Part shown: positions 5,349-59,860 of the stretch, piece after piece
Numbering within the stretch: position 1 is the first letter of the stretch
How the letters are laid out: every line of letters begins with the position of its first letter
Assembly (NCBI GenBank): GCA_013360585.1
Contig: JABWBH010000007.1
Coordinates: forward strand, 1 to 64,000
From: Phycisphaerae bacterium
GTDB lineage: Bacteria; Planctomycetota; Phycisphaerae; UBA1845
DNA: 64,000 nt
Reading direction: 5' to 3'
Position numbers and translations under genes: made by a program
Notes under the pieces: generated by a model
Databases searched by the model: none
What the model was told of the DNA's origin: nothing
What the model saw: the letters and a program-made list of their open reading frames with translations, nothing else

Positions 5349-9827
<4,479 letters not shown>

Positions 9828-40973: not shown

Positions 40974-41735
40974 GGTCGGGGGGATTGTCGGCCCGACGCC
41001 GGAACCTGGCGAATCGGTCAGGGACAAGGCGTCGTCAGTCCACCGGTAGAGGCTCGCCGTAACATCACCGCTTCATGTCGTATTGTTGATGCGATCGCAC
41101 AAAATCTGCGGGAGGTCGCGGAAGGGGTGGGGTCGCGGGGAAACCAGCCTCACCGGAGTCACAAGGGGACCGGGCTTTCCCAGGACCGAGCCTGTGAAAT
41201 CCGGCGGTTCTGCCTCTTGACTGTTCTCATCGGGTCAAGTTTTTCGCATCAGCCGGACGATGCGCCCCGGTGGTGTGCGTATTATTTCCTGATGGGTTCT
41301 TGCAAATTCCGACCGTGGGGTTCATACTGGATCCTTAATGCGGGCTGAACAATCCGCAAGGCGGTGCCGGGGCAGGTGGTTCTCCCCCGGGGTTGGCGCG
41401 CGGATTGGCCTTGAAAAAGCCTTGAGAAACGGTTCCGCGAAGGACGGGAACCGACCGGTGCTCCGGTTGCTGGACTTGGTCCGGCGCTGACGGATCGCCG
41501 TCGGCGGCGGGGTCGGGGTGTCTTGGTTAACAGGACGGCGAACGCGCGGCGGGGGCCGGGATCCGGCGCAAAAGACAAGAAAAGGGAATTCCGGGCGTCG
41601 GAAAACGTATTGAACGCGGTGAGGATCCGGTTGCCGGTGAGAGAGCGGGATCGCCAGACTGGATCATGGCGCTTCGGGCGAGCATGAACGGGGTCTTCGG
41701 GCGGTCCCGCCGGTTTGAAGAAAGGGTCGGAGCAT
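40974..41735. other. Long intergenic region upstream of the first pseudopilin gene
   Basis: About 760 bp without a supported gene. A 73-codon frame (41127-41348) has no similarity I recognise and an irregular composition. Hairpin-capable sequences occur, for example CGGTTCC-GCGAAGGAC-GGGAACCG near 41430. TATTAT occurs at 41280-41285 but without a good -35. A long 5' leader for the pseudopilin gene is possible. Confidence 0.45.
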
Positions 41736-42722
41736 ATGCACGTCAAATCATCACGTCGAACGGGCTTCACGCTGATCGAGCTGCTCGTGGTCATCGCTAT
41801 CATCGCCCTCCTGATCAGCATCCTTCTGCCCTCGCTCCAGGCGGCGAGGGAGCAGGCGAAATCAGTGAAGTGTGCGACGCAGTTGCGGGCGATGGGCACG
41901 GGGTTGGCTCTGTACGGAGCGGATAACGACCACTTCCCGGGCGGGCACGCTCAACACCCTCATGCGTCCGACTGGATTTACGTCTGGCACACGCGCACGC
42001 GGGCGTACATGGATCAGCAGGTGGAGACGTTCAATTGCCCGTCGGCGCCGGAAGAGTTCGACTGGGTGCCGAAGATCACGCCGGGGTTCAATGAGAATTT
42101 CAACATGCAGGGTTATTCCGACCACGGATGGCCCAATTACGGGTATCAGGACAACGAGGAGCCGCAGATCGGTACGACGCGGTCGGGTGTGTTCCACTTC
42201 TTCGGATACGGCTACAACGAATCCGGCAATCGAGAGAGCTTCCAGTTCTGTCGGGGACTGGGCATGCATCCGGATACCCCGGCCTATCTTTATGAAGAGT
42301 TCATGAACGATGGGGAGATCTCTGAACAAGAGCGTAATCAGCTCGACGTCAACCGTCGCCTCGCCGAATTCCCGGTGGACCGGGTGGTGACTCCGGCGAA
42401 CATGATCGCCATCACGGACTCGCGTGCCGACGGCGTGGACGATTTCGCCAGTTACGGTCGCCCCCGTTTCTGGCCGGGAGGCGGAGAACGACCCCAGGAA
42501 CGCTGGCCGGGCGAGCGGCACCGCAAGGGCGCCAACGTCTTGTTTGTTGACAATCACACGGAGTGGGACCGTCGCACGAACTGGGTGACGGCGAAGTCGC
42601 TTGTGGACACCGGGCAGGAAGTCGGCAACGGGTATTTGCCGTCCGCCCAGCGCCGTTGGAACAACGATCACCAGCCGCACCTCATGGCCGACGGCAGCGA
42701 TTCAACGACGACCCAGGAGTAA
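41736..42722 (+). CDS. Pseudopilin with H-x9-DG-like C-terminal region (copy 1)
   Basis: 328 aa from ATG 41736. The type IV prepilin leader is [20 protein letters not shown]: cleavage after the Gly, methylated Phe, and Glu at +5, followed by the hydrophobic helix to SLQAAREQA. The C-terminal half has [20 protein letters not shown], the H-x9-DG-type motif of planctomycete/verrucomicrobial pseudopilins with Asn in place of Gly, and a conserved tail [20 protein letters not shown]. It would be exported and processed by a PilD-type peptidase. It pairs with the paralogue at 43400. Confidence 0.9.
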
Positions 42723-43244: not shown

Positions 43245-43399
43245 GTGCGGGATCTTGCAGCAGCCTCAGGCGCGGCAGCGGCGTGCTGAGGAGCGATTTC
43301 TTACGAGCGCCGCTCGGGTGCTGGGGGGCATCGGGAATGCTTCGGTGATTCAGGCCGAGCGGGCCGGCGGGTCGCCCGTGATCGGAGGTCGTGTCGTTC

Positions 43400-44332
<933 letters not shown>

Positions 44333-45002: not shown

Positions 45003-45938
45003 CTACCGCTGGCGCGTCGCGTGACGTTCCCTCGGTTTTCCGGATGCCGCGCCGTCTTCCGGCTGCGGGCAGGATGCAAGCCGAAGTTCGTTCGCGAGGG
45101 TGAGCAAGTCAGCGAGGGATTCCCCGCGTTGCGAGTACGTGTGCTTCATTATCGAAAGCGAGCCGGCCGCCCGGCCGCCCAGGATCAGCGCCGTTCCTCG
45201 CTCTGACAAACGTGCCGAAAGTTCCGCAACGCCTTCCTCCACTTCTTTCTGGTTCCGGATGGAACTGATGCTCAGCCAGACCAGGCGCGGCGCGTGGCGT
45301 TCGACGGCGGCAAGCATCGCGGAGAACGGGGTGTCCGGACCGAGATTAACCGCATGCCAACCGTCAGCGGCGAGGGTGGTCGCCACCAACATCGACGGGA
45401 GCAGGTAAGGATCTCCCGGCGGGGCGCCGCCGAGGGCAACCGGGTCTTCCGTCGGTGGTTCGACCAGCAGGCGCAACTGCTCCACGGCCTGAATGCAGAT
45501 GTCGGTGGCGCGATGTTCGAGAAAAACGCCATCCGGCTCATGCGACCAGAGTTCCCCGAGGCGGTTCATCGCGGAACGGATCGGACCGTCGGCGATCTCG
45601 GCCAGGCTCCCGCCGCTGAGGTAAAGGGAGAGGATCAGCCCCCGCGCCTCGCGCGCTTTTCCTTCCACGAGGTGGGCGAACAGACGTTCGGCGGGCGAAT
45701 CAGTTGAAAGGACGGGATCGCCGCAGGCGGGCATGTCGCTGAGGCCAAGGGCTTCCGGTCTGACCAGCGGGGCGCGGATAGCGCGGATGAACCGGATGGC
45801 TTCGCCGATGGGGATTCTGCGGTGCCCGCCCGCGGTCCTGGAGACGTTGATCTGCCCGTCGTCGGCCCACCTTTTGAGGGAAGATTCGCTTACACCGATG
45901 GCATCTGCGAGCTTTTTTGGAGATATTATAGGACTCAC
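45003..45938 (-). CDS. MerR-type regulator with B12-binding-fold domain (CarH/LitR-like)
   Basis: 311 aa from a GTG. The N-terminal winged helix (ISPKKLADAIGVSESSLKRW, then RTAGGHRRIP) is a MerR/BldC-type DNA reader. Residues 85-160 are the B12-binding helical cap with W131-x9-E141-H142 (WSHEPDGVFLEH), the Wx9EH motif of the cobalamin photoreceptor CarH at the same numbering. Residues 165-290 are the Rossmann domain (LGPDTPFSAMLAAV, LVWLSISSI, GTALILGGRAAG). The DxHxxG motif providing the lower axial histidine reads DPYLLP (Tyr178), and Ser132 follows the Trp where CarH has His132. It is divergent from folE and likely controls it. Confidence 0.82.
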   Translation of the reverse strand: MSPIISPKKLADAIGVSESSLKRWADDGQINVSRTAGGHRRIPIGEAIRFIRAIRAPLVRPEALGLSDMPACGDPVLSTDSPAERLFAHLVEGKAREARGLILSLYLSGGSLAEIADGPIRSAMNRLGELWSHEPDGVFLEHRATDICIQAVEQLRLLVEPPTEDPVALGGAPPGDPYLLPSMLVATTLAADGWHAVNLGPDTPFSAMLAAVERHAPRLVWLSISSIRNQKEVEEGVAELSARLSERGTALILGGRAAGSLSIMKHTYSQRGESLADLLTLANELRLASCPQPEDGAASGKPRERHATRQR

Positions 45939-45960: not shown

Positions 45961-45989
45961 AATTTATGACGTTTTTTCGTTCACGTCAA
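45961..45989 (-). promoter_or_regulatory. Promoter of the MerR/B12-type regulator gene
   Basis: On the minus strand -35 TTGACG (complement of 45984-45989), a 17-base spacer and -10 TAAATT (complement of 45961-45966), leading to the GTG start at 45938. Its -35 box abuts that of the folE promoter. Confidence 0.6.
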
Positions 45990-45996
45990 CCTTGAC
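45985..45996. promoter_or_regulatory. Inverted repeat joining the two -35 boxes (candidate operator)
   Basis: GTCAACCTTGAC has 5-bp arms GTCAA/TTGAC and a 2-bp centre. The arms are the -35 elements of the two divergent promoters, so a dimeric regulator bound here would control both. MerR/CarH-type repressors normally cover promoter elements; assignment to this regulator is inference. Confidence 0.45.
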
Positions 45997-46019
45997 AGGC
46001 CATCTCGAGTCGGCATAAT
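45992..46019 (+). promoter_or_regulatory. Promoter of folE
   Basis: Perfect -35 TTGACA (45992-45997), a 16-base spacer, and -10 CATAAT (46014-46019). The predicted transcription start, near 46026-46027, coincides with an in-frame ATG. The first in-frame ATG at 46018 lies inside the -10 element and cannot be used from this promoter. Confidence 0.7.
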
Positions 46020-46026
46020 GAACGAT

Positions 46027-46767
46027 ATGAACATTTTAAATGATATATCGTCCGGAACAAGAAATTCAAGACCGCTGGGCCTGGCGGATCACAAAGCTGA
46101 AAATCAGGAGTTCTCGAACGGGGGTCCGGGCCGGTGCGGGACGAGGACGCTTCCAGGTGAGGCGGAGGCGGCAAGGCCCTCGCGGGCACCGGGCGTCGAC
46201 GTTCCGCGGATCGAGCGGGCGGTCCGCGAAATCCTTCTGGCCATCGGAGAAGACCCGGATCGTGACGGCTTGCAGGAGACGCCTCGACGGGTTGCGCGAG
46301 CCTACCGGGATATCTTTTCGGGACTGACCGACAGTGCTGCGCGGCATCTTCAGACGCAGTTCGAGCACGAGTCGCATCAGGCGGTGGTGGTCAGCGGGAT
46401 CGCCTTCAACAGCACGTGCGAGCACCACCTGCTTCCGTTCCGGGGCCAGGCACACGTGGCGTACCTGCCTCATAAGCGTCGCGTGGCGGGGCTTTCCAAG
46501 CTGGCGCGAACCGTCGATGTCTTCGCGCGCCGCCCGCAACTTCAGGAGCGACTGACGGAGCAGATCGCCGACGCTCTGGACGAGCACCTGTCCGCACGAG
46601 GCGTGGTGGTTGTGCTGGAGGCTGAGCATTTCTGCATGACGCTCCGCGGCGCGTGCAAGCCCGGCGCGGTCACGACGACGCTGGCCGCCCGGGGACTTTA
46701 CCGGTCTGACGCGGCGGCGCGGGGCGAGATTCTCTCATTGATGAAACGATCGCCCCAGGGGTCATGA
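46027..46767 (+). CDS. folE: GTP cyclohydrolase I
   Basis: 246 aa from ATG 46027, chosen because the earlier ATG (46018) overlaps the -10 box; no Shine-Dalgarno precedes either, so a leaderless mRNA is likely. About 55 N-terminal residues are not conserved. The enzyme core starts at [20 protein letters not shown] and has [20 protein letters not shown], the zinc site [11 protein letters not shown] with its partner in [16 protein letters not shown], and [20 protein letters not shown]. It converts GTP to dihydroneopterin triphosphate for folate, including the methenyl-THF antenna used by many photolyases; a photolyase closes this gene block. Confidence 0.93.
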
Positions 46768-46798
46768 GGTGTGACGTTGTGAGCCAAGGAGATCAAAG

Positions 46799-47473
46799 AT
46801 GAATCGGGTCTTGTGGATCGGAGTGGTGGGAATCGGCTGGTGTGGCGGGTGTGTACCGATGACGGATGCGCCGCCGAACACCGCGTCGGCGCGTCTGCGC
46901 GTGGTCCACGCCAGTCCGGACGCGCCTGCGGTGGATGTATGCGTCGAGGGTCAGGTCGCCTTCGCGGACGCGGCGTTTCCCGGGACGACGGATTACGCGG
47001 AGCTGGAGGCGGGTACCTACGCGATCCGGGTCACGCAATCCGGCGCCGGGTGCGGGAGCGCGGCGGTGATCTCGGCGGACCTGCCGTTGGAGGCTGACGA
47101 AGATGTGACGGTGGTCGCGCTGAATGAATTGTCCGAGATCGAGCCGCTGGTGCTGATCGACGACAACACCGCGCCGACGTCCGGCAACGCCAAGGTTCGC
47201 TTCGTCCACGCCGGTCCGGACGCTCCGACCGTGGACATCACGCTCACCGACGGCACGACGTTGTTCGACGACGTGTCATTCAAGGAGGCGTCGGATTACC
47301 TCGAGGTTCCGGCGGGAACGTATGACCTTCAGGTCCGTGATGAAACCGGCGCGAACGTCGTGCTTGCGCTGGACGACGTTGGGTTGGGCGCCGGGCGGAT
47401 TTACACGGTCTTCGCAGTGGGATTCCTCACGGGCGAACCTGCGCTCGACGCGCTCGTGGCGGAAGACAATTGA
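46799..47473 (+). CDS. DUF4397 lipoprotein
   Basis: 224 aa with AAGGAGAT upstream. Lipobox GIGWCGGC near residues 11-18 marks it as a lipoprotein. Two DUF4397 beta units repeat: ARLRVVHASPDAPAVDVCVE (about 31-110) and AKVRFVHAGPDAPTVDITLT (about 130-210), each followed by a TDYAELEAGTY / SDYLEVPAGTYDLQVRD strand. The family is common in secreted and surface proteins and often sits beside FAS1 domain proteins, as here (gene 54 bp downstream). Molecular function is unknown. Confidence 0.85.
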   Translation: MNRVLWIGVVGIGWCGGCVPMTDAPPNTASARLRVVHASPDAPAVDVCVEGQVAFADAAFPGTTDYAELEAGTYAIRVTQSGAGCGSAAVISADLPLEADEDVTVVALNELSEIEPLVLIDDNTAPTSGNAKVRFVHAGPDAPTVDITLTDGTTLFDDVSFKEASDYLEVPAGTYDLQVRDETGANVVLALDDVGLGAGRIYTVFAVGFLTGEPALDALVAEDN

Positions 47474-47526
47474 ATCGGGATGCAACGGGGAATCTTTAAG
47501 AATTCTTCGGGAGGGAGTTCAAACTC

Positions 47527-48717
47527 ATGAGGAAGCATAAGATCGGACTGAACGTGATGACGGTGATGGCGGTGATGGGGGCGATCGCGCGTCCTGCGAC
47601 CGTGCAGGCGCAGGACAAGTCTCTCGTCGAGACGGCGGTCGCGGCGGGGAGTTTCAAGACGCTGGTTCAGGCGGTTGAGGCGGCGGGGCTGACCGAGACG
47701 CTGAGCGGCCCCGGTCCTTACACGGTTTTCGCTCCGACGGATGACGCGTTCTCGAAGTTGCCGCCGGGCGCCCTCGAGTCGCTGATGAAGAACTCGGAGT
47801 CGCTCAAGAGCGTCCTCCTCTTCCACGTTGTTCCGGGGCGGGTCATGGCCGCCGACATGGTCAAACTGAAGGCGGCGAAGACGGCGCTGGGGCAGACGGT
47901 TCAGATTGATGCCTCGAAGGGGGTGCGCGTCGAGAGCGCCAACGTGGTGAAGACCGACGTCGCGGCTGGTAATGGCGTCATCCACATGATTGACGCCGTG
48001 ATGCTGCCGAGAAACGACGTCATCGAGGCGGCCCGCTCCGCCGGGTCGTTCAGGACGCTGCTTGCGGCGATCGAGGCGGCGGGGCTGACGGATACGCTCC
48101 GGGGCGACGGACCGTTCACCGTTTTCGCGCCCACCGACGAAGCCTTCGCCAAGCTGCCGAAGGATGCGCTGGATGCGTTGCTCAAGGACAAGGGCAAGCT
48201 GGCTTCGGTCCTGACCTACCACGTGGTGTCAGGCCAAGTGATGGCGGCAGAGGTGGTGAAGCTGAAGGACGCCAGGACCGTTCAAGGTCAGAGCGTGAAG
48301 ATCGACGCGTCGGCCGGAGTCAAAGTGAACGGTTCAAAAGTTCTGAAGGCCGACGTGCCGGCGACGAACGGCGTCATTCACGTCATCGACACGGTGCTTC
48401 TGCCTCCGGACGTGAAGCTGGGTGACGCCCACGGCGAGGTCGGGCGCAGCCTTCGGCTGGCGATCGAACGCGGTGTGCCGCTGTTCAACTCCGGAAACGT
48501 GGAAGCCTGCGCGGCCGTGTATGAAGTCGCGGCGTTGACCGTGCTGGAGCTGGCCGGCGATGAGCTGGATGCAGGGTTGCGGGCGCGTCTCGCCCAGGGG
48601 CTGCGTGCCGCCGGACAGTCGCATGGTGCGGCCGACCGGGCGTGGGCCCTGCGGCACGCCTTTGATGATGTTCTTGCCGCGGAGCACGAAATGACGCGAA
48701 TGACAAGCGCGCGGTAG
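47527..48717 (+). CDS. Secreted protein with two FAS1 (fasciclin) domains
   Basis: 396 aa; GGGAGG upstream. An N-terminal signal peptide ends near AQAQ (residue about 28). FAS1 domain 1 (about 32-160) contains [58 protein letters not shown] and [13 protein letters not shown]; domain 2 (about 165-295) repeats it with [39 protein letters not shown] and [13 protein letters not shown]. The last 95 residues are helical ([14 protein letters not shown]) with no family I recognise. FAS1 proteins mediate adhesion or extracellular binding and recur in light- and oxidative-stress gene sets. Confidence 0.9.
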
Positions 48718-48848
48718 GAGCTGACGTGTTGCGGTTCCCGGGCGGGCCGGTGCGTCCGCTGCGGCGAAGCGCGAGATCGTTGGCTGCTGACGGTCGATCC
48801 GGCGGTAACAGAGGAAGATCGGAATCTCAAAGATAAAGGGGAAGTGTC

Positions 48849-49070
48849 ATGCGTAGTTTTGATATGTTGGCTGCGGTGCTGCTCGTCGTTGGGGGGCTGA
48901 ACTGGGGGTTGGTCGGGGTTATCGACTTCGATCTGGTCGCCGCCTTGTTCGGCGCGGATTCGATCCTGGCCAATGCGGTTTACACGGTCGTCGGCGCGGC
49001 GGCCGTCTACCAGGCGATCGCGCTGAAGCGTATCCAGAGACGGTGGAACGTCCGGACCGCGGCTGCTTGA
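48849..49070 (+). CDS. DUF378 membrane protein
   Basis: 73 aa. Two hydrophobic helices flank GGLNWGLVGVIDFDLVAALF, the DUF378 signature (LNWGLVGxxxxDLVAxxxG); the second is YTVVGAAAVYQAI. The C-terminus is basic. DUF378 proteins are small inner-membrane proteins of unknown function. AAAGGGGAA lies before the ATG. It sits between the FAS1 and SOUL genes with gaps of 131 and 121 bp. Confidence 0.88.
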   Translation: MRSFDMLAAVLLVVGGLNWGLVGVIDFDLVAALFGADSILANAVYTVVGAAAVYQAIALKRIQRRWNVRTAAA

Positions 49071-49191
49071 TTACCGGTCAGGGGGTGCCGGGAAGGTGGG
49101 GGCGTTCGGGCGTCATGTCCTTACGCTCCCACCGGACCCCCCTGGTTCCCACGCCTCGCGACAGTGACGTCGTCAGACCGGACAAAAGAAC

Positions 49192-49962
49192 ATGAAGATG
49201 CTCGGAATGTCGGTGATCCTTCTTTTTAGCCTGGCGCTTCTCGGGAGCCTGGGGCTTCTGGTTGCGGGTTGCAGCTTGCGCCGGCCCGCGCCGCAATCGG
49301 AGGCTTTTGCGTCCGGTACAGCAGCCGCAGAGTTCGACGCAAGCCAGCCGAAGACGATGCGCGTAGGAGGGGATCTTCACCGGACCACGGAGTTTGTGGA
49401 TGGGGAGTATCGAAGCGGGGTGTGTCGCATCACGACGCCCCTGCCGGAGGGCTACCCCGCCCCGACTCCGCCGGACGCGATCGACATCAAGCGCTACCCG
49501 CGGGTCCGCCGCGCGGAGATCGGCGGAACGATGCCGCCCGATTGGGGGATGAACTTCGCGTTCTTTCCGCTGTTCAACCACATCAAGCGCCGCCAGATCG
49601 CGATGACCTCGCCGGTCGAGATGAACTACGACGGTCTTAGCGCCGAAGGCTCGAGAAAGCCGAGTTCGTGGACCATGTCGTTCGTCTACCGATCCCCGGA
49701 ACTCGGTCCTGCGGGCGGTGACCCCAGGGACGATCGCATCCTTATCGAGGACATTCCTCCGGTGACGGTTGCGGCCATCGGGATGCGCGGAGCGTACAGA
49801 ATGAAGCTGGTCAACGAAGGCGTCTCGCGTCTGCGCGACTGGTTGTCGCAGCAAACCGAGTGGGAAGAGGCTGGTCAGCCGCGGGCGTTGTTTTACAACG
49901 GTCCCGAGGCTCCCGCACGCAATAAATGGGCGGAAATTCAGATCCCGGTCCGCCGCCGCTGA
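49192..49962 (+). CDS. SOUL heme-binding family lipoprotein
   Basis: 256 aa. A lipoprotein signal (LGSLGLLVAGC, Cys near residue 27) precedes a SOUL-family domain: IDIKRYPRVRRAEIGG, FFPLFNHIKRRQIAMTSPVE, WTMSFVYRSPE, RILIEDIPPVTVAAIGMRG. The IAMTSPVEM motif is the family hallmark. SOUL/HBP proteins bind heme and other tetrapyrroles. A cell-envelope location is indicated by the lipobox. Association with photolyase and lipocalin genes fits protection against photosensitising porphyrins (inference). Confidence 0.9.
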   Translation: MKMLGMSVILLFSLALLGSLGLLVAGCSLRRPAPQSEAFASGTAAAEFDASQPKTMRVGGDLHRTTEFVDGEYRSGVCRITTPLPEGYPAPTPPDAIDIKRYPRVRRAEIGGTMPPDWGMNFAFFPLFNHIKRRQIAMTSPVEMNYDGLSAEGSRKPSSWTMSFVYRSPELGPAGGDPRDDRILIEDIPPVTVAAIGMRGAYRMKLVNEGVSRLRDWLSQQTEWEEAGQPRALFYNGPEAPARNKWAEIQIPVRRR

Positions 49963-50049
49963 TGGGATGATGGAGGGAGGGCGCGGGCTTCTGTGGAACG
50001 ATGATCGGCGGATTCGCATGGCGCGGTGCGCCCGGAGGTGACCGACTTT

Positions 50050-50619
50050 ATGGCAATGGGTGGGGCATGGGGGCGACGGATTATGAAGGTCTTCCCGGCG
50101 CTGGCGGGAATCCTCGGCGGCTGCGGCGCGTGGTTCCTGAACACGTCGGGAACCCTCGAAACGGCGGATTACGTCGACGTCGAGCGATACATGGGGACAT
50201 GGTATGAGATCGCCAAGTATCCGAACACCTTCCAGCAGGGGTGCTCAGGCGTGACCGCCGAGTACACGTTGCTGACGGACGGTCGGGTTCGGGTGGTGAA
50301 CGTTTGTCGGGGGGACGACCTTACGACGGTGAAGCGGACCATCGAAGGGTTCGCGACGGTGGCGGACCGGTCGACCAACGCCAAGCTGACCGTCTACTTC
50401 TTCTTCCCGTTCGGCGCCCCCTACTGGATCATCGATCTTGACGAAGACTACCGGTACGCGGTCGTGGGCGAGCCGAGTCGTCGGTTTCTGTGGATTCTGA
50501 GTCGAACCCCGGTCCTCGACGATACGACTTACCATGAGATTCTCCAGCGTCTTCCGGAGAAGGGTTATGATCCGGCGCGGCTGGTGCTGACGCCGCAGGT
50601 TGCGGAGGAACGGCCATGA
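50050..50619 (+). CDS. blc: Lipocalin (Blc-like), probable lipoprotein
   Basis: 189 aa from ATG 50050 with GGAGGTGA eleven bases upstream; alternatives are 50056 and 50083. The signal is GRRIMKVFPALAGILGGC, a lipobox. The lipocalin GxW motif is YMGTWYEIAKYPNTFQQGCS, followed by TAEYTLLTDGRVRVVNVC, AKLTVYFFFPFGAPYWIIDL and YAVVGEPSRRFLWILSRTPV, all Blc features. Bacterial lipocalins bind lysophospholipids or fatty acids and respond to membrane stress. It overlaps the next gene by ATGA. Confidence 0.9.
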   Translation: MAMGGAWGRRIMKVFPALAGILGGCGAWFLNTSGTLETADYVDVERYMGTWYEIAKYPNTFQQGCSGVTAEYTLLTDGRVRVVNVCRGDDLTTVKRTIEGFATVADRSTNAKLTVYFFFPFGAPYWIIDLDEDYRYAVVGEPSRRFLWILSRTPVLDDTTYHEILQRLPEKGYDPARLVLTPQVAEERP

Positions 50620-51878
50620 ATCATCGGGTACGATTGCGCGGCGAAGCCCTGCTGCCGGTTCTCGCCGTTGCTGCGCTGATCTTTTCGGGGGAGGCGTGGG
50701 GTGAGGAGGCGAGGGTCCAGGCGTGGCCGCAGTGGCGCGGGCCTTCGCGCGACGCTCAGGTGAAGGAGTCGCCGCCGTGGCCGAAAGACCTTGCGACACT
50801 GACCCGCGAATGGCGCGTCGAGCTGGGGCCGGGTTACAGCGGTCCCATCGTGTGGGGAGATCGGGTCTTTGTAACGGAGACCGAAGCCAAGACGGATGAG
50901 AGCGTGCGGGCGCTGGACCGCGCGACCGGCCTCGAGCTGTGGCGGACCCGATGGAGCGGCGCGATGAGCGTACCCTTCTTCGCCAGGAAGAACGGCGACT
51001 GGATCCGGGCGACTCCGGCGTGCGACGGCGAGTCGCTGTTTGTGGCGGGGATGCGCGATGTTCTGGTCTGTCTGAACATCGAGACGGGTGCGGAGCGTTG
51101 GCGAGTCGATTTTTCGGATAAACTCGGGACGCCGCTGCCGTCGTTCGGCTTCGTATGCTCGCCGCTGGTGATGGGTGAACACGTCTACGTTCAGGCCGGC
51201 GGCGGATTCGTCAAGCTGAATAAGCGATCCGGCGAGATTCTCTGGCGAACGCTGATCGACGGTGGGGGAATGAACAGCGCGTTTTCCTCTCCGATCGCCG
51301 CGACCCTTCACGGCATACCGCAACTTATTGTGCAGACGCGCGAGACGCTCGCCGGCGTCGCCCCTGACACAGGAGAGATCCTATGGTCTCAGAAGGTGCC
51401 GGCGTTTCGGGGGATGAACATCCTCACGCCCACCCTCTTTCAGGATGGAATCCTCACCAGCAGCTACCAGAACAAGACGTTCTTCTACCGCATCGAGAAA
51501 GAGGATTCGGGGTTGAAAGTCCGCGAGGCCTGGACGGTTCCGGTCCAAGGCTACATGTCTTCTCCGGTGATCATCGGCCGGTACGCTTATCTGCATCTCG
51601 GAAACGGGCGGGCCTGTTGTCTCGACTTGCAGGAGGGGAAGGAAACCTGGCGGACAAACCCGTTTGGTGAGTACTGGAGCATGGTGGCAAATGGTGATCG
51701 CATCCTCGCGCTGGATGAACAAGGAGAACTGCTGCTGATCGAGGCCGATCCGCGTGAATTCCGGTTATTGGATCGAAAGGAAGTCGCCAGCGCCGAAGCC
51801 TGGGCCCATCTGGCGGTCAGCGGCGACAGAGTGTTCGTCCGCGATCTGCGCGGGGTCTCGGCCTTCGTCTGGAAGTAG
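50616..51878 (+). CDS. PQQ-binding-like beta-propeller protein, secreted
   Basis: 420 aa. A signal peptide (LLPVLAVAALIFSGEAWG) is followed by WPQWRGPSRDAQ, a common planctomycete start for these propellers, and WD-like blades: VRALDRATGLELWRTRWSG, LVCLNIETGAERWRVDF, VKLNKRSGEILWRTLIDGGG, LAGVAPDTGEILWSQKVPAF, CCLDLQEGKETWRTNPFG. No catalytic quinoprotein dehydrogenase cysteine pair or Asp motif is evident, so it is more likely a structural or binding propeller (BamB-like) than an alcohol dehydrogenase. It is translationally coupled to the lipocalin. Confidence 0.85.
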   Translation: MNHRVRLRGEALLPVLAVAALIFSGEAWGEEARVQAWPQWRGPSRDAQVKESPPWPKDLATLTREWRVELGPGYSGPIVWGDRVFVTETEAKTDESVRALDRATGLELWRTRWSGAMSVPFFARKNGDWIRATPACDGESLFVAGMRDVLVCLNIETGAERWRVDFSDKLGTPLPSFGFVCSPLVMGEHVYVQAGGGFVKLNKRSGEILWRTLIDGGGMNSAFSSPIAATLHGIPQLIVQTRETLAGVAPDTGEILWSQKVPAFRGMNILTPTLFQDGILTSSYQNKTFFYRIEKEDSGLKVREAWTVPVQGYMSSPVIIGRYAYLHLGNGRACCLDLQEGKETWRTNPFGEYWSMVANGDRILALDEQGELLLIEADPREFRLLDRKEVASAEAWAHLAVSGDRVFVRDLRGVSAFVWK

Positions 51879-52006
51879 GCGAACTGGTGTTCCTTGAGGA
51901 CGATCCGCCCCGTGACCCTCCGGGTTATCCGCGAGCCGATCGTTAACCGGTCCGTCCCCTCTCTTGAAGATGCGGATGAAAAACGCCGGGAAGGCAGGAG
52001 CGACAT

Positions 52007-52903
52007 ATGAGAACTCGAGTCTGGAATGAACGAACGCGGGGCGGCCATCAACGACTCTTGACGTTATGGTCTCCTCTTGTGACCGCCGCCCCCGCAGGTT
52101 GTCTTCTTCTGTGCGCCTGTTCGCGCGCGCTGCCCTGGCCGGAAAGCCCGCTGTATGAAGCGCCCACGAACGATCCGAACTGGGTCCAGCCCGCCAGCAG
52201 GGAAGAGGCCATGACCGCCATGGCAGGTCACTACGCTCACTATGACATTGTCGCCTATGAGGGAGAGACGGCCAACGGACCGCTGTCCTCTTTTGTTGTC
52301 TCGTATGGCTACACGGACCTGATCATCGAAGACGGGGAGCTTGTTGCATACGACCGCTTCTGTCGTGCCAATTACATCGCCAATCAGAATTTCGACACGA
52401 TTTTTTCGGATGCCGCCACCCAGGCGATTCAGCCGCCCGGCGTGATCGTCGACGTGTATGAAGAGGATGGCGTGTGGAAGCTATGGCGTCCGGCGACCCC
52501 GACGCTGAACGGAATCGACGGGGACCCCAACGTCCCCCTTTCGATGGACCGCAACGATCCGCTGATCCGCGACGACGACAACGACGGGAAACCGGGCGTG
52601 ACGGTTTCCGTAATCCTGTTCGGCTTCATTCGCGGAGAGATCTACATTGCTCGCCGCGAGATATTCGCCAATGAAATGACGCTCTATTCCGACGGCAGTT
52701 TGCGGGGCAGCGTGATCGACGACTCTGAACAGTTGGTGATCGGGGCCTCTCTCCCGATATTGGACACCCCCAGCAACCCGCCCCAGCGCCGCGATCCCGG
52801 ACTGAATCCGATCCTCCTGATACCGGTCTCAGAGAATGTTGATACCTGCGAAGAACTCCTGGCGATCCGAGATTCGCTGTTCCCGCCCGAACCTGAATTT
52901 TAA
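52007..52903 (+). CDS. Unknown lipoprotein with an acidic calcium-site-like loop
   Basis: 298 aa. The N-terminal region GCLLLCACSR carries a lipobox about 39 residues in, after a long basic leader; the start may therefore be later. I recognise no family. A beta-rich body (GHYAHYDIVAYEGETANGPL, SFVVSYGYTDLIIEDGELVA) is followed by an acidic stretch IRDDDNDGKPGVT (about 189-201), a DxDxDG-type loop like calcium-binding dockerin or thrombospondin repeats. It sits between the propeller and photolyase genes, with gaps of 128 and 126 bp, so co-expression is possible. Confidence 0.65.
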   Translation: MRTRVWNERTRGGHQRLLTLWSPLVTAAPAGCLLLCACSRALPWPESPLYEAPTNDPNWVQPASREEAMTAMAGHYAHYDIVAYEGETANGPLSSFVVSYGYTDLIIEDGELVAYDRFCRANYIANQNFDTIFSDAATQAIQPPGVIVDVYEEDGVWKLWRPATPTLNGIDGDPNVPLSMDRNDPLIRDDDNDGKPGVTVSVILFGFIRGEIYIARREIFANEMTLYSDGSLRGSVIDDSEQLVIGASLPILDTPSNPPQRRDPGLNPILLIPVSENVDTCEELLAIRDSLFPPEPEF

Positions 52904-53029
52904 AGCCGCGTCACCCGAAGGTTTCATGGTCGGACTCAACCGCACCAACCCTTCTGAAATCCCGGCCGGCGGGAGATCGACCTGCGCGGCGGGTTAATCG
53001 CCCCCGGATGGACGGCGGGATCGAACCCG

Positions 53030-54493
53030 ATGACACGAATGCCAACAACCCTTGTCTGGTTTCGCAGCGATTTGCGGATCGAAGACCATCCCGCGCTGGC
53101 GACGGCGGTTCGAGGCGGAGGGGCGGTCGTCCCGGTGTTCATCTGGTCGCCCCAGGAGGAAGGCGACTGGCCGGCGGGCGCGGCGTCGCGCTGGTGGCTG
53201 CATCGGTCCCTTGCCGCGCTGGCCGATTCGCTGGAGCGACGGGGTTCGAGACTGGTGATCCGGCGCGGGCCAGGCCTGGCGGCGCTTCGCGCGCTCATCC
53301 GCGAAACGGGCGCGGTCGCCGTGCATTGGAGCCGTCAGTATGAGCCGGCTGTGCGGGAGCGCGATCGCGCGATCGAGTCTGCGCTGCGGGCGGACGGCGT
53401 GCGGGTTGAAACCCATCCGGGATCTCTGTGCTACGAACCGGAAAGGGTCTTGAATGAGCAAGGGCGTCCGTTCCAGGTTTTTACGGCGTACTGGCGCGCG
53501 TGCCTGAGGCTTGACGAACCGGCTGAACCCGTTCCGGCGCCGCGGCGGATACGGGCGCCGGCGTGCCGGCTTGAATCGCTGCCGATCGAATCGCTCGGTC
53601 TTGAGCCGCGCGTCGATTGGGCGGTCGGACTGCGGGCGACGTGGCAGCCGGGCGAGCACGGCGCCAGGCGACGACTGCGCGACTTCCTGACGTCATCGCT
53701 GGAGGGCTACGCCGAAGAGCGCGATCGCCCGGACCACGCGGGAACGTCGCGGTTGTCGCCTCATTTGCATTTCGGGGAGCTTAGCGCGCGGCGGATCTGG
53801 CACGAGGTTCGTGCGCGCCAGGCGGGCGGTCTCCGTCCGGAGGCGTCGGCAGCCGCGGACGCTTATCTGCGCGAACTCGGTTGGCGCGAGTTTGCTCACC
53901 ATCTGCTGCACCATTTTCCGCAAACGACCCACGAGCCGCTCAAGGCGCAGTATTGGGATTTCCCCTGGGACGAGAACCCCGAAGTGCTTGAGGCGTGGCG
54001 ACGAGGCCGGACGGGCTACCCCATCGTCGATGCGGGCATGCGGGAACTGTGGAGCACGGGATGGATGCACAACCGCGTCCGGATGATCGTGGCGTCCTTT
54101 CTGGTGAAGCACCTGCTCATCGACTGGCGCTGCGGCGCGGCGTGGTTCTGGGATACGCTGGTGGACGCCGACCTGGCGAACAACACGCTCGGGTGGCAGT
54201 GGGTGGCTGGATGCGGGGCGGACGCCGCGCCGTACTTCCGCATCTTCAATCCGGTGCTCCAGGGGCGCAAGTTCGATCCGCAGGGCGATTACGTCCGGCG
54301 CTGGGTTCCCGAGCTGGGGAGCCTTTCTGACACGCACCTTCATGCTCCGTGGGAGGCGCCGCCGACGGAGCTACGCGCGGCGGGAATCCGCCTGGGCCGC
54401 GACTATCCGAATCCGATCGTCAACCACGCGGAAGCCCGCCAACGCGCTCTCGCCGCGCTGCACGGCCTTCGCGGAGGACGGCGCGGCGCTTGA
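53030..54493 (+). CDS. phr: Deoxyribodipyrimidine photolyase (class I CPD photolyase type)
   Basis: 487 aa from ATG 53030. The N-terminal antenna domain begins TTLVWFRSDLRIEDHPALAT; the FAD-binding domain has GTSRLSPHLHFGELSARRIW, YLRELGWREFAHHLLHHFPQ, GRTGYPIVDAGMRELWSTGW, MHNRVRMIVASFLVKHLL, then WFWDTLVDADLANNTLGWQW, all hallmark motifs. It repairs cyclobutane pyrimidine dimers using blue light. The electron-transfer tryptophans are expected in WFWDTL and NNTLGWQW. FolE, encoded at the start of the same block, could support a methenyl-THF antenna. Confidence 0.93.
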   Translation: MTRMPTTLVWFRSDLRIEDHPALATAVRGGGAVVPVFIWSPQEEGDWPAGAASRWWLHRSLAALADSLERRGSRLVIRRGPGLAALRALIRETGAVAVHWSRQYEPAVRERDRAIESALRADGVRVETHPGSLCYEPERVLNEQGRPFQVFTAYWRACLRLDEPAEPVPAPRRIRAPACRLESLPIESLGLEPRVDWAVGLRATWQPGEHGARRRLRDFLTSSLEGYAEERDRPDHAGTSRLSPHLHFGELSARRIWHEVRARQAGGLRPEASAAADAYLRELGWREFAHHLLHHFPQTTHEPLKAQYWDFPWDENPEVLEAWRRGRTGYPIVDAGMRELWSTGWMHNRVRMIVASFLVKHLLIDWRCGAAWFWDTLVDADLANNTLGWQWVAGCGADAAPYFRIFNPVLQGRKFDPQGDYVRRWVPELGSLSDTHLHAPWEAPPTELRAAGIRLGRDYPNPIVNHAEARQRALAALHGLRGGRRGA

Positions 54494-56093: not shown

Positions 56094-56432
56094 CTGAACA
56101 TCCTCCGTTTGTATTTCGCGGCCGGCGCCGGCGTCCGCGGCTGGATCACTCTCGATCCGTTCATGGCTCCACACCCGGCGGCGCGCCGGGCGACATTTTT
56201 CGGAAAGCGGCGCCGCACCCTTGGGGGGGCTGGTGTGCGGCGGACACCCTCTCGCTCAACCTCCAAGCCGAAATCCACGGGCTTCGCCCCTCACGCCTTC
56301 CAACAATTTTTTCTCTTTTTTTTGCGGACGTGGTATTCTGAAACGCAATCCAACCGGGCTGGACGTTCGCGCGCCGAGATTCGCCGGCGCCCCGTGTCCC
56401 CCGGCTTCGCGGGTCTTGAGGCATCGACGCTC
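56094..56432. other. Divergent region before the ECF sigma gene
   Basis: No gene supported. A T-rich tract lies at 56306-56323, and TATTCT (56334-56339) could be a -10 box for the sigma gene without a good -35. GGGCTTCGCCC (56278-56290 region) forms a short hairpin ahead of the T-rich tract. Confidence 0.45.
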
Positions 56433-57008
56433 ATGAGTGCGGACATCACAGCGCTTCTCAGCGCCGCGGCGAAGGGGGATGGCGTAGCGGCGGCGCGAAT
56501 TCTCCCCGCGGTGTACAAGGAATTGCGGTCGCTGGCGGCGGCGCGAATGAAGCGGACGCCGCCCGGGCAGACGCTTCAGCCCACCGCCCTGGTTCATGAG
56601 GCCTATCTGCGGCTCGTGGGTAGCGGATCGCCAGACTGGGAAAGCCGGGCGCATTTCTTCTTCGCGGCGGCGCGGGCGATGCGCGACATCCTCGTCGAGC
56701 AGGCGCGGCGGCGCGCGAGCCTGAAGCGAGGCGGAGACCGTCAGCGCGTGAAGCTCGGTGACGAGTTCTGGGGGTTGGAATCTCCCGTCGAAGATGTGCT
56801 CGCGCTCCACGAGGCGCTCGGGCGCCTGGAGGCGGAATCGCCGGAGGCGGCGCAGATCACCTTGCTTCGTTATTTCAGCGGTCTGACCACGCCCGAGGCG
56901 GCGGAATTGATGGGGATCTCCGTGGCGACGGCGGAACGGCGATGGCGTCTGGCGCTGGCGTTCCTCCGGTCCGACATGGAGGGAACCAGCGCGAGGGAGG
57001 ATGTATGA
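56433..57008 (+). CDS. ECF-type RNA polymerase sigma factor (planctomycete group)
   Basis: 191 aa from ATG 56433. Region 2 is LSAAAKGDGVAAARILPAVY, KELRSLAAARMKRTPPGQTL and QPTALVHEAYLRLV; region 4 is AAQITLLRYFSGLTTPEAAE and LMGISVATAERRWRLALAFL. The LxPTALVHEAYLRL motif is diagnostic of the large ECF family paired with Ser/Thr kinases in Planctomycetota. The stop overlaps the kinase ATG (ATGA), giving translational coupling. It would direct polymerase to an unknown promoter set, probably under control of the kinase. Confidence 0.9.
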   Translation: MSADITALLSAAAKGDGVAAARILPAVYKELRSLAAARMKRTPPGQTLQPTALVHEAYLRLVGSGSPDWESRAHFFFAAARAMRDILVEQARRRASLKRGGDRQRVKLGDEFWGLESPVEDVLALHEALGRLEAESPEAAQITLLRYFSGLTTPEAAELMGISVATAERRWRLALAFLRSDMEGTSAREDV

Positions 57009-59860
57009 ACGCTCCTCCTCCGTCCCTGGAACAGCTTTTCGACGAAGCGCTGGAGATTCCGGCGGCGGATCGTTCCGCGTGGCTGGCTGAGCGGTTGGCG
57101 GATCACCCTGACCTTCGTGCGAAGCTCGAGAGGCTGCTCGACTTCGACGCGCCGGACCTGGACGTTCCCGTCGGCGATCTGCTGGTGTCCGCGCGACGGG
57201 CGCTGGAGAACGGCGACGAGACGGGCGAACCCAGCGGGCGGATCGGCGCGTACGAGATCGTCGGTAACCTCGGCGCCGGCGGGATGGGCATCGTATTGGA
57301 AGCCCGTCAGGACCGGCCGCAGCGCAGCGTCGCCCTGAAGCTCATCCGCCCGGAACTGGCGACGCGGGAAGCCCGGCGCCGCTTCGAGCGGGAGGCACAG
57401 ATCCTCGCCAAACTTCAGCATCCGGGCATCGCCCAGGTGTACGAGGTCGGCGAGGCGGAGACCCTCGGACCCTCAGGTCGTCCCTACCGTCAGTCTTATC
57501 TGGCGATGGAGCTGATCCGCGGCGAGCCGATCGACCAGTACGCACGTCGGCATGCGCTTACGATCGAGGACCGCGTGAGCGTCATGGCGCAGGTGTGTGA
57601 CGCCGTCCATCACGCCCACTTACACGGCGTCGTGCATCGGGATCTGAAACCCGGGAACATTTTCGTCAACAACGCCGGTTATGTGAAAATCCTGGACTTC
57701 GGCGTAGCGCGGCTGATGCAGCCGAACGCGGAAGCCTCGTTGTATACGTGCGCCGGGCAGATCATCGGCACGCCGGCTTACATGAGCCCCGAGCAGGTTT
57801 GCGGCTCGTCCCCGCTCGACGCGCGATCCGACGTCTACGCGCTGGGGGTGGTCCTCTACGAATTGCTGGCCGGAAGGCTTCCCTACGACGTGCGCGAGGC
57901 GCCCTTTTCCGAGGCGGCGCGGCGCATCCGCGAGGAGGAGCCGACGCGCCTCAGCCGCGTGGACGCGCGGCTGCGCGGCGACCTGGACACGATCGTCGCC
58001 AAGGCGCTGGAGAAGGAGCCTCATCGCCGTTACACCACGGCCGCGGCGCTGGCGGACGATCTGCGGCGGTACCTGACCTTCGAACCGATCGCCGCGCGCC
58101 CCGTCAGCACCTGGTATCAGATCGTCAAGTTCTCGAAGCGCAACCGGCGGTTCGTGGCGGCGCTGCTCTCGGCGTTCGTCCTGTTGGTTGCCGCCGTCGT
58201 CGTCACGGTCTTACTTGCGGTCCAATCCGCCCGTATCGCGCGCGACGCCCGGCGGGCGTGGGACACGGAGGCGTTCCAGCGCCGCCTCGCCGAGGAGAAT
58301 CTCGCCCGCGCCGACGCCATGCAGCAGATCCTGCTCTGGGGGCTGGGGTTCGCCAGCGGGGGGGATGAAACGAAAGAGTTCACTACGGCGCAAATGCTCG
58401 ACCTCGCTGAAGCGCGCATCGCCGCGCATTTCGCCGGACGACCGCGCGACGAGGCGATGGCCTGGTACACGCTCGGCAAGATCCACGCCCATCATTTGCG
58501 CGACACCATCCGCGCCGTCCCTTACTTCGAACGCGCCCTGGAGCTGTGGACCGCGCACGGAATGCCCGACGACGCGACGTTGGTCTGGACGTACTCCGGA
58601 CTGATGTTCGGACGCGGCCAGATGGGCTACGACCAGATCGAACTGCACCCGCTGCGGCTCGAACTGATCAAAGTCCTTCAGCGCCAGATCCGCGCCGAGT
58701 CCGCGGTCCTGGCGGACGCGGTCGATGAAATGCTCGCAGCGATGCTGCCGCTGGAGCCGGCGCCGGACGACGAAATCCGTCGGCTGACGGCGCAAATGCT
58801 CGCGACGCTTGAGGCGTCGCAGCTCCCGTGTGATTCGGCGGCGCGGTACGCCGCGTACAACGCCCTGATGACCGCGAGCACCTGGATCGGCAACCGGGGA
58901 ATCATCCGCCCGTCGTCCTTTAATGCCTACGCCACGGAACTCGACACGATCGAAGTCCGTTGTCCGGAAGACTCTGAATTCAGGATGCTTTGGCGCTGGC
59001 TGGTGGCGCGCAACCTGGCGATCAAGAGACGCGATCCGCAGAAAGTCGTCGAAATCTGTGACCGGATGATCGACGGCTGCCGAAGACTCATGCGCCCGGA
59101 CGACTTTTTCATCAGCGACGCGCTCGGGATCAAGGGTTCGGCGTTCGCCCAACTGGGCCGCCTCGACGAGGCGGAGCGCCTGCTGATCGAATCCAACGAG
59201 CGACTGAAGCAACGCGAACCCACGCGCGTGCTGGACAGCGTGTCTCGATTGATCACGTTCGCCGATCACACGGAACGCTGGGACGCTGCCGCCGCTGCCT
59301 TGCGCGAACTCGCGGAACAACCGCCGTCCGAGACGCTTCTTGGCAGGGAGGAGCGCCTTGCCCGATGGTTGAAATTGAGAAATGACCTCGCCTGGCCCGT
59401 GGTGCGGGCGGCGGGAAGACCGTCCGCCGCTTATGAAGCGGCGGCGGTGATGGCGGACCAGGTGGTGAGGCACGCGCCTGATAATGCGGATTATGTGAAC
59501 ACTCAGGGCGTCGCCCGCTACCGGACGGGGGATAATGATGGCGCGCTCGAAGCCCTGAAACAGTCCGCAATGCTCGCCGCGGAAAAGGGGGACGACCGGA
59601 TCGCGGACTGGGCGTTCATCGTTCTGGCGTATGCCCGCCTCGGACAGGAAACCTCTGCCCGCGATGCCCTGGCACACGTGGACTCCCTCGCCGCCTCCTC
59701 AGCCCCCCTCAGCGAGGAGGACTGCGTCTTCCTGAACGAGGCCCGCACCATCCGGTTCCCCCTTGACCAGAGTCGGGAACCGATCCCGGAACTTAGCGAG
59801 CCGCGAAATCCAGACCGCGCGGACCTTGCGACGAATCAGCCCCGTCATGACAAGCAATGA
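57005..59860 (+). CDS. Membrane Ser/Thr protein kinase with a TPR-like C-terminal region
   Basis: 951 aa from ATG 57005, GGGAGGATGT upstream. An N-terminal region of about 75 residues precedes the PknB-type kinase domain (about 78-365): glycine loop GNLGAGGMGIVLEARQ, VALKLIRPE (Lys), HRDLKPGNIFV, DFGVAR, GTPAYMSPEQ, DARSDVYALGVVLYELL. One membrane helix lies about 385-410 (FVAALLSAFVLLVAAVVVTV). The C-terminal half (about 430-920) is helical and may be divergent TPR. Catalytic Asp and Lys are intact, so it is likely active. Confidence 0.9.
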   Translation: MNAPPPSLEQLFDEALEIPAADRSAWLAERLADHPDLRAKLERLLDFDAPDLDVPVGDLLVSARRALENGDETGEPSGRIGAYEIVGNLGAGGMGIVLEARQDRPQRSVALKLIRPELATREARRRFEREAQILAKLQHPGIAQVYEVGEAETLGPSGRPYRQSYLAMELIRGEPIDQYARRHALTIEDRVSVMAQVCDAVHHAHLHGVVHRDLKPGNIFVNNAGYVKILDFGVARLMQPNAEASLYTCAGQIIGTPAYMSPEQVCGSSPLDARSDVYALGVVLYELLAGRLPYDVREAPFSEAARRIREEEPTRLSRVDARLRGDLDTIVAKALEKEPHRRYTTAAALADDLRRYLTFEPIAARPVSTWYQIVKFSKRNRRFVAALLSAFVLLVAAVVVTVLLAVQSARIARDARRAWDTEAFQRRLAEENLARADAMQQILLWGLGFASGGDETKEFTTAQMLDLAEARIAAHFAGRPRDEAMAWYTLGKIHAHHLRDTIRAVPYFERALELWTAHGMPDDATLVWTYSGLMFGRGQMGYDQIELHPLRLELIKVLQRQIRAESAVLADAVDEMLAAMLPLEPAPDDEIRRLTAQMLATLEASQLPCDSAARYAAYNALMTASTWIGNRGIIRPSSFNAYATELDTIEVRCPEDSEFRMLWRWLVARNLAIKRRDPQKVVEICDRMIDGCRRLMRPDDFFISDALGIKGSAFAQLGRLDEAERLLIESNERLKQREPTRVLDSVSRLITFADHTERWDAAAAALRELAEQPPSETLLGREERLARWLKLRNDLAWPVVRAAGRPSAAYEAAAVMADQVVRHAPDNADYVNTQGVARYRTGDNDGALEALKQSAMLAAEKGDDRIADWAFIVLAYARLGQETSARDALAHVDSLAASSAPLSEEDCVFLNEARTIRFPLDQSREPIPELSEPRNPDRADLATNQPRHDKQ

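Follow-up and report, generated by a model that had tools for sequence, protein, structure and literature searches.

This locus raises the question of whether light sensing by cobalamin can do without an axial histidine. The window, the whole stretch of 64,000 nucleotides analysed here (contig JABWBH010000007.1 of a Phycisphaerae bacterium), carries on its minus strand a gene for a 311 aa regulator (45003-45938, with GTG at 45938 as the start codon of the ORF). In this protein a MerR/BldC-like winged helix-turn-helix (wHTH) is joined to a CarH-type two-part B12 domain, and the axial His of that domain is replaced by Tyr. A preliminary description of the sequence left three options for it: cobalamin held by another ligand, a different signal, or light sensing without cobalamin. 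Our results favour the first. The host genome has a single copy of such a regulator; among named relatives the nearest is the MAG BroJett003, with a copy of 94% identity.

The wHTH DNA-binding domain occupies approximately residues 5-56 (45771-45926, minus strand) and is, in the model, closest to the BldC/CtMerR type. It matched NCBIfam HTH_BldC (E 2e-7, 31 bits against a cut-off of 77) and Pfam MerR (E 8e-6, below the curated cut-off). A four-helix bundle (residues 82-158; 45465-45695, minus strand) corresponds to B12-binding_2 (PF02607, E 3.2e-6) and to helices of the AF2 model, and a Rossmann-like B12-binding subdomain (residues 164-290; 45069-45449, minus strand) matched PF02310 (E 8.6e-6, under the curated cut-off) and the folds of CtMerR and TtCarH. 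The AF2 model was built on a 63-row alignment and has a mean pLDDT of 93. Its closest solved folds are CtMerR (Z 23.8, 2.6 Å over 216 residues), the photocobilins (Z 22) and TtCarH (Z 19.7), followed by AppA SCHIC (4heh, Z 18.7) and MetH. Note that a fold match by itself does not establish ligand binding. The NCBIfam CarH equivalog NF052513 aligned with residues 12-259 and scored 42 bits, its cut-off being 400. Judged from its sequence, the protein is CarH-like by anatomy and departs from CarH in this cut-off, in the axial His and in the 11-bp operator.

When the regulator was aligned with Thermus thermophilus CarH (L245, plasmid pTT27), W131 paired with W131, S132 with H132, E141-H142 with E141-H142 and D176-P-Y178 with E175-R-H177. 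The Wx9EH motif is kept, as had been claimed, with the adenosyl cap W131 (45546-45548, minus strand) and the pair E141-H142 (45513-45518, minus strand) aligning one to one. The same alignment confirmed that Asp176-Pro-Tyr178 (45405-45413, minus strand) takes the place of the axial-His motif D/ExHxxG: the window protein reads DPYLLP in place of E/DxHx2G, and in phmmer its GDPY stretch pairs with GDLH of Chloracidobacterium CtMerR (8jbs). The preliminary description had also pointed to the change of a photochemically important His132 to Ser. The residue was read correctly, but the weight placed on it does not hold. Position 132 is variable, ranking 173 of 209 columns by conservation in the family, and the photoactive CtMerR has Arg at the equivalent position (PMC11796333); thus the loss of His132 says little, and we rejected it as an argument against photochemistry.

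The Tyr is not confined to one protein. A search of 100 related genomes gave a match in 41 of them, and many full-length members were recovered when 391 Planctomycetota genomes were searched with a profile. The family set was defined as 113 loci with a member scoring >200 bits, and 110 members could be aligned. At position 178 these have Tyr (99 members), Ser (4), His (3), Gly (2), Phe (1) or Thr (1), the axial His being absent from 107 of the 110. Five other B12-domain proteins of the same phylum (L072 and L177-L180) retain the His in D/ExHxxG. Going by these counts, Tyr178 is not a case of one-off decay, and its recurrence is well beyond chance: what had been described as a feature of a single protein defines a phylum-wide family.

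The phylogeny against CarH/LitR and planctomycete relatives, which had been proposed as a check, was run as a quick ML tree, whose deep branches are weakly supported. In this tree the Tyr family clusters together with strong support, with the exception of one divergent row (L176), and its nearest His-bearing relatives are CtMerR and the long-branched L072. Since the three His members of the family sit at scattered tips, Tyr looks ancestral to it. The divergent L176 (6931-7965, plus strand) lacks nearly all pocket residues and has Asp at position 178; it is possibly a truly ligand-free copy. Some members occur in pairs: one genome has two regulators end to end on opposite strands (L125; 7447-8412, plus, and 8433-9317, minus), and another locus (L130) has a tandem pair in which the pocket of the second is degenerate. 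Among plasmids, the sole match to the family was a Rhizobium protein with a normal His. Among the open-access papers searched, we found none that links CarH/LitR with planctomycetes.

The pocket of the family is better preserved than the rest of its sensor domain. The top entropy-ranked of the 209 columns (n=110) include E141, G200 and G255 (110 each), G128, P204 and G254 (109 each), D176 and G170 (107 each) and W131 (105). Except for G170, the top-ranked columns are those of the CarH ligand motifs GxxW, E of EH, GxxxP and GG, all elements of CtMerR/TtCarH (PMC11796333, PMC8156234). In CtMerR, GxxW, EH, GxxH and GxxxP surround AdoCbl, with contacts to its corrin ring and adenosyl group and to the adjacent subunit (PMC11796333). 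The mean entropy of the 12 motif columns was 0.51, compared to 2.33 for random column sets, none of which was as low in 100,000 draws, and Y178 itself ranks 15 of the 209. The nucleotide-tail motifs SxT/V and GG are present at B12 spacing (S223 in 93/110, S/T225 in 101/110, GG in 109-110/110), and the overall arrangement D176-x-Y178-x2-x-x41-S223-x-S225...GG agrees with the B12 motif. The exception among these otherwise strongly conserved AdoCbl-contact motifs is the H142 column, with H in 51 and R in 58 of the 110 members.

The host genome has a PduO adenosyltransferase, and an enzyme of this type was present in 25/25 genomes tested. As the CobA-type enzyme was absent in nearly all genomes checked, PduO is the relevant enzyme, and its presence in all 25 indicates that AdoCbl can be made in family genomes. 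An adenosyltransferase gene lies near the regulator in just 1/113 neighbourhoods; we took this as chance and rejected a linkage between the two.

What DNA would such a protein bind? Upstream of family genes, TCGTTCA-like words are strongly over-represented, and the motif obtained by EM (AAATCGTTCAAATCGTTCA) consists of two tandem 9-bp direct repeats in fixed orientation. The predicted operator of the family is this repeat pair (AAATCGTTCA-AATCGTTCA). Scores above the 99th percentile of shuffled sequence were reached by 93 of the 113 family upstream regions, and the motif withstood cross-validation between clades: with training on the ER clade, 44/53 of the EH clade had a site, and in the reverse direction the count was 45/59. 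In the window, the predicted operator (TAAAATGTTCATATCGTTCAT; 46018-46038, minus strand) scores far higher than anything else in the 64 kb (23.3, compared to 9.3 for the second-best independent site). Held out of training, it still scored 18.1, above the best of 1060 shuffles, and it alone in the host genome fits the pattern without a mismatch. Operator-like sites elsewhere in the host carry 2 mismatches, one of them lying inside a coding frame, and are candidates only. A third operator repeat was considered and rejected, since there is no family-wide enrichment past two units; the window itself has a degenerate third unit that extends the array to 46047. The repeats are 9 bp long, and the 11-bp direct-repeat operator of CarH was not found here.

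The operator brings the family close to BldC, with which it probably shares the type of wHTH, the HTH_BldC match lying below its cut-off, and whose head-to-tail 9-bp direct repeats resemble those predicted to be bound here. The BldC consensus is AATTNNNNC (PMC5859096), and it fits the family operator AATTCGTTC/AAATCGTTC. BldC, however, has no effector domain, whereas the family combines a B12-type sensor domain with a fixed repeat pair.

The operator lies next to the divergent folE gene. The predicted sigma-70 promoter of folE (TTGACA-N16-CATAAT; 45992-46019, plus strand) has 11/12 consensus bases, and it abuts and overlaps the operator. A weaker predicted promoter of the regulator (TTGACG-N17-TAAATT; 45961-45989, minus strand) has 9/12. 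A protein on the predicted operator would lie across the folE promoter at its start region; such a position suggests repression, as occurs with CarH and LitR. The segment 45961-46019 had been put forward for EMSA; the predicted operator falls almost wholly outside it.

folE encodes GTP cyclohydrolase I (46018-46767, plus strand; PF01227, E 3.9e-70) and would be the divergent target gene. At 46018-46030 the listed start codon runs into the predicted -10 box, and FolE probably begins further downstream. As stated in the preliminary description, the regulator sits beside folE at the head of a photolyase-containing block. This co-directional block (46018-54493, plus strand) continues with genes for a DUF4397 protein (46799-47473; PF14344, E 9.5e-50), a fasciclin (FAS1) domain protein (47527-48717; PF02469, E 6e-79), a SOUL family protein (49192-49962; PF04832, E 2e-9), a Lipocalin_2 protein (50026-50619; PF08212, E 2.5e-45), a PQQ-like beta-propeller protein (50616-51878; PF13360, E 6.5e-40) and an uncharacterised protein, and it ends with a DNA photolyase (53030-54493; PF03441, E 1.8e-92; PF00875, E 7.8e-52). 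Elsewhere in the window, two neighbouring plus-strand genes (41715-42722 and 43391-44332) have translated N-termini typical of planctomycete pseudopilin-like (DUF1559-type) proteins. At 56109-59860 (plus strand), going by translation, a sigma-like factor gene precedes one for a large serine/threonine kinase that has TPR-like repeats.

The genes that recur beside the regulator across the family loci are FAS1, sigma-70 factors, photolyase, FAD amine-oxidase-like (UfaD type) and CMAS (UfaM type) genes, together with DUF1365 (UfaO type), DUF1295, SDR-DUF2867, FolE, SOUL, lipocalin, DPRP and DCC1; the UfaD/UfaO identities are taken from PMC7380195. At least one of eight light-core genes lies within 8 kb in 46/113 loci compared to 0/20 random regions; since family loci had been used to define the gene clusters, this control is biased. 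The photolyase test with Pfam models is cleaner than this neighbourhood count: 6 of 12 genomes have a photolyase no more than 9 kb from the regulator, where 0.06 were expected (P 1e-11). In other genomes operator sites also occur in trans, at folE-lipocalin (G081), FAS1 (G378, G121) and photolyase (G053) genes, and in G081, G053 and G121 they adjoin sigma-70 genes. At L107, L108, L109, L112 and other loci of family f39, the divergent neighbour of the regulator is a sigma-70 gene, and the operator region is common to both. This shared region suggests a relay from regulator to sigma factor, as in LitR-LitS or RpoE-RpoHII.

The neighbours and operator targets match a known singlet-oxygen/light regulon, and they likewise correspond to the regulon of class II LitR in Pseudomonas, with phrB, ufaM, folE and cryB (PMC9758184). 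In Rhodobacter sphaeroides the RpoE singlet-oxygen regulon includes phrA, cfaS, ufa genes, the fasciclin RSP_1409, folE2 and the sigma factor gene rpoHII (PMC7074977), and the same kinds of genes flank the regulator or carry the operator here. There, however, an ECF sigma/anti-sigma pair (RpoE-ChrR) is in control, whereas here control is predicted to lie with a DNA-binding protein of B12 fold. Note that three His-bearing MerR-B12 regulators from proteobacterial plasmids (L246, L248 and L250) adjoin fasciclin or FAD-oxidoreductase genes, so the link between regulator and FAS1 may extend past planctomycetes.

Taken against known systems, the regulator is filed as a CarH/LitR variant with a BldC-like operator. 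With CarH and class I LitR (TtCarH and CtMerR, 8jbs/8jbt) it shares the MerR-type HTH, the four-helix bundle and the Rossmann B12 domain, the Wx9E, GxxW, GxxxP, SxS/T and GG motifs, the links to photolyase and the predicted action as a repressor overlapping a promoter. It differs from them in the lower axial His, which is Tyr in 99/110 members, in position 132, which is not His, and in H142, which is Arg in half of the family. Two 9-bp direct repeats stand here in place of the three or four repeats of CarH, where the unit is 11 bp (PMC8156234), and the regulon is led by folE, FAS1 and photolyase, in contrast to the carotenoid genes of CarH and class I LitR.

The family, pocket, operator and regulon on which our reading is built are computed features, and from them we infer AdoCbl binding, a light response, the direction of regulation and a role for the Tyr. 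We hold tentatively, with somewhat less than even confidence, that the regulator is a CarH-like, AdoCbl-loaded dark repressor of a photo-oxidative regulon, with Tyr178 at the lower axial position. In the dark, the AdoCbl-stabilised protein would sit on the two 9-bp repeats at 46018-46038, where the folE promoter has its start region, and the folE-led block would be shut off as far as the photolyase. In the light, the Co-C bond would break, the assembly would change and the protein would leave the DNA, so that folate/pterin, photolyase and membrane-protection genes could be expressed. Tyr178 may bind the cobalt as a phenolate, with help from Asp176, or it may simply pack below a five-coordinate, base-off cobalt; either arrangement would make the chromophore absorb bluer than His-on CarH. 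AdoCbl with another lower ligand is favoured because the contact motifs, H142 excepted, are strongly conserved and because all 25 genomes tested have PduO. The conserved photo-oxidative regulon supports light as the signal, at the level of gene content.

Several observations count against this reading. The lower ligand known from CarH is missing, Arg replaces the H142 of Wx9EH in about half of the family, and the pocket residues may have been kept for domain packing or oligomer contacts. Since position 178 is S, G, T, F or H in 11 of the 110 members, the pocket being otherwise mostly kept, Tyr is not strictly required; Ser, Gly, Thr and Phe at this site speak, at least where they occur, for a lower face that provides no ligand. 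The broader claim, a phylum-wide class of blue-shifted cobalamin photoreceptors in which a Tyr phenolate held by Asp176 is the lower ligand of AdoCbl, or in which the cobalt is five-coordinate, with a photo-oxidative regulon, we consider unlikely as a whole.

The main rival is a repressor independent of B12, in which the B12 fold is a scaffold and a partner protein or stress governs the same light regulon; we find this doubtful, though to be taken seriously. The axial His is, after all, gone in 107/110 members. Control by partners has precedents in class II LitR, run by a short LOV protein, and in CarA, run by the anti-repressor CarS. Myxococcus xanthus CarA retains the B12 motif and yet represses without B12 (PMC8156234), and Pseudomonas class II LitR controls phrB, ufaM, folE and cryB without B12, via the LOV protein (PMC9758184). 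The family resembles class II LitR in its regulon content (photolyase, folE, ufaM, a cryB-like DPRP) and in having no canonical axial His. However, class II LitR (PplR/PmlR2) has lost the Rossmann B12 domain, retains B12-binding_2 alone and works with a short LOV partner, whereas in the window protein the Rossmann domain is intact; moreover, an abandoned pocket should not remain the most conserved part of its domain. A query with a P. putida SB1-LOV sequence gave no short-LOV match in the host at E 1e-10, and its LOV-like matches in 5/25 family genomes were to large proteins only. Degenerate B12 domains behind a MerR HTH are also found in E. coli MlrA and BluR, the latter with a BLUF partner; in the host genome no BLUF protein was found. 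A short-LOV or BLUF partner was thus rejected for this host, and no partner photoreceptor recurs in the family neighbourhoods.

AppA SCHIC also has a B12 fold without the canonical axial His, and it binds heme. That heme takes the place of AdoCbl here would agree with the presence of this structure (4heh) among the fold matches, with the SOUL heme protein genes that often neighbour the regulator, and with Tyr, a known heme ligand. The top fold match, however, is of the AdoCbl-bound CarH type, and W131, E141, GxxxP and GG are all kept. AppA no longer has the residue that caps the adenosyl group (W94 in AerR), and its corrin site is occupied by a loop (PMC9144470); since the family keeps the cap, along with the GG motif, heme is less likely, and we regard it as quite improbable. 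Least probable of all, to our mind, is that AdoCbl is bound but its own state (level, redox or oxidative destruction) is sensed, and not light directly. The singlet-oxygen/photo-oxidative character of the regulon (PMC7074977) would suit such a sensor, and photochemistry could differ without the axial His; against it, all the nearest solved relatives are photoreceptors, and photolyase, a specific light-repair gene, is recurrently linked to the family.

Throughout Planctomycetota, this family is a candidate for the master regulator of light protection, with photolyase, folE and related genes under its control. The 9-bp repeat operator lends itself to a direct reporter assay, and more than 100 natural variants with a defined predicted operator provide a test set for the need of the axial His in cobalamin light sensing.
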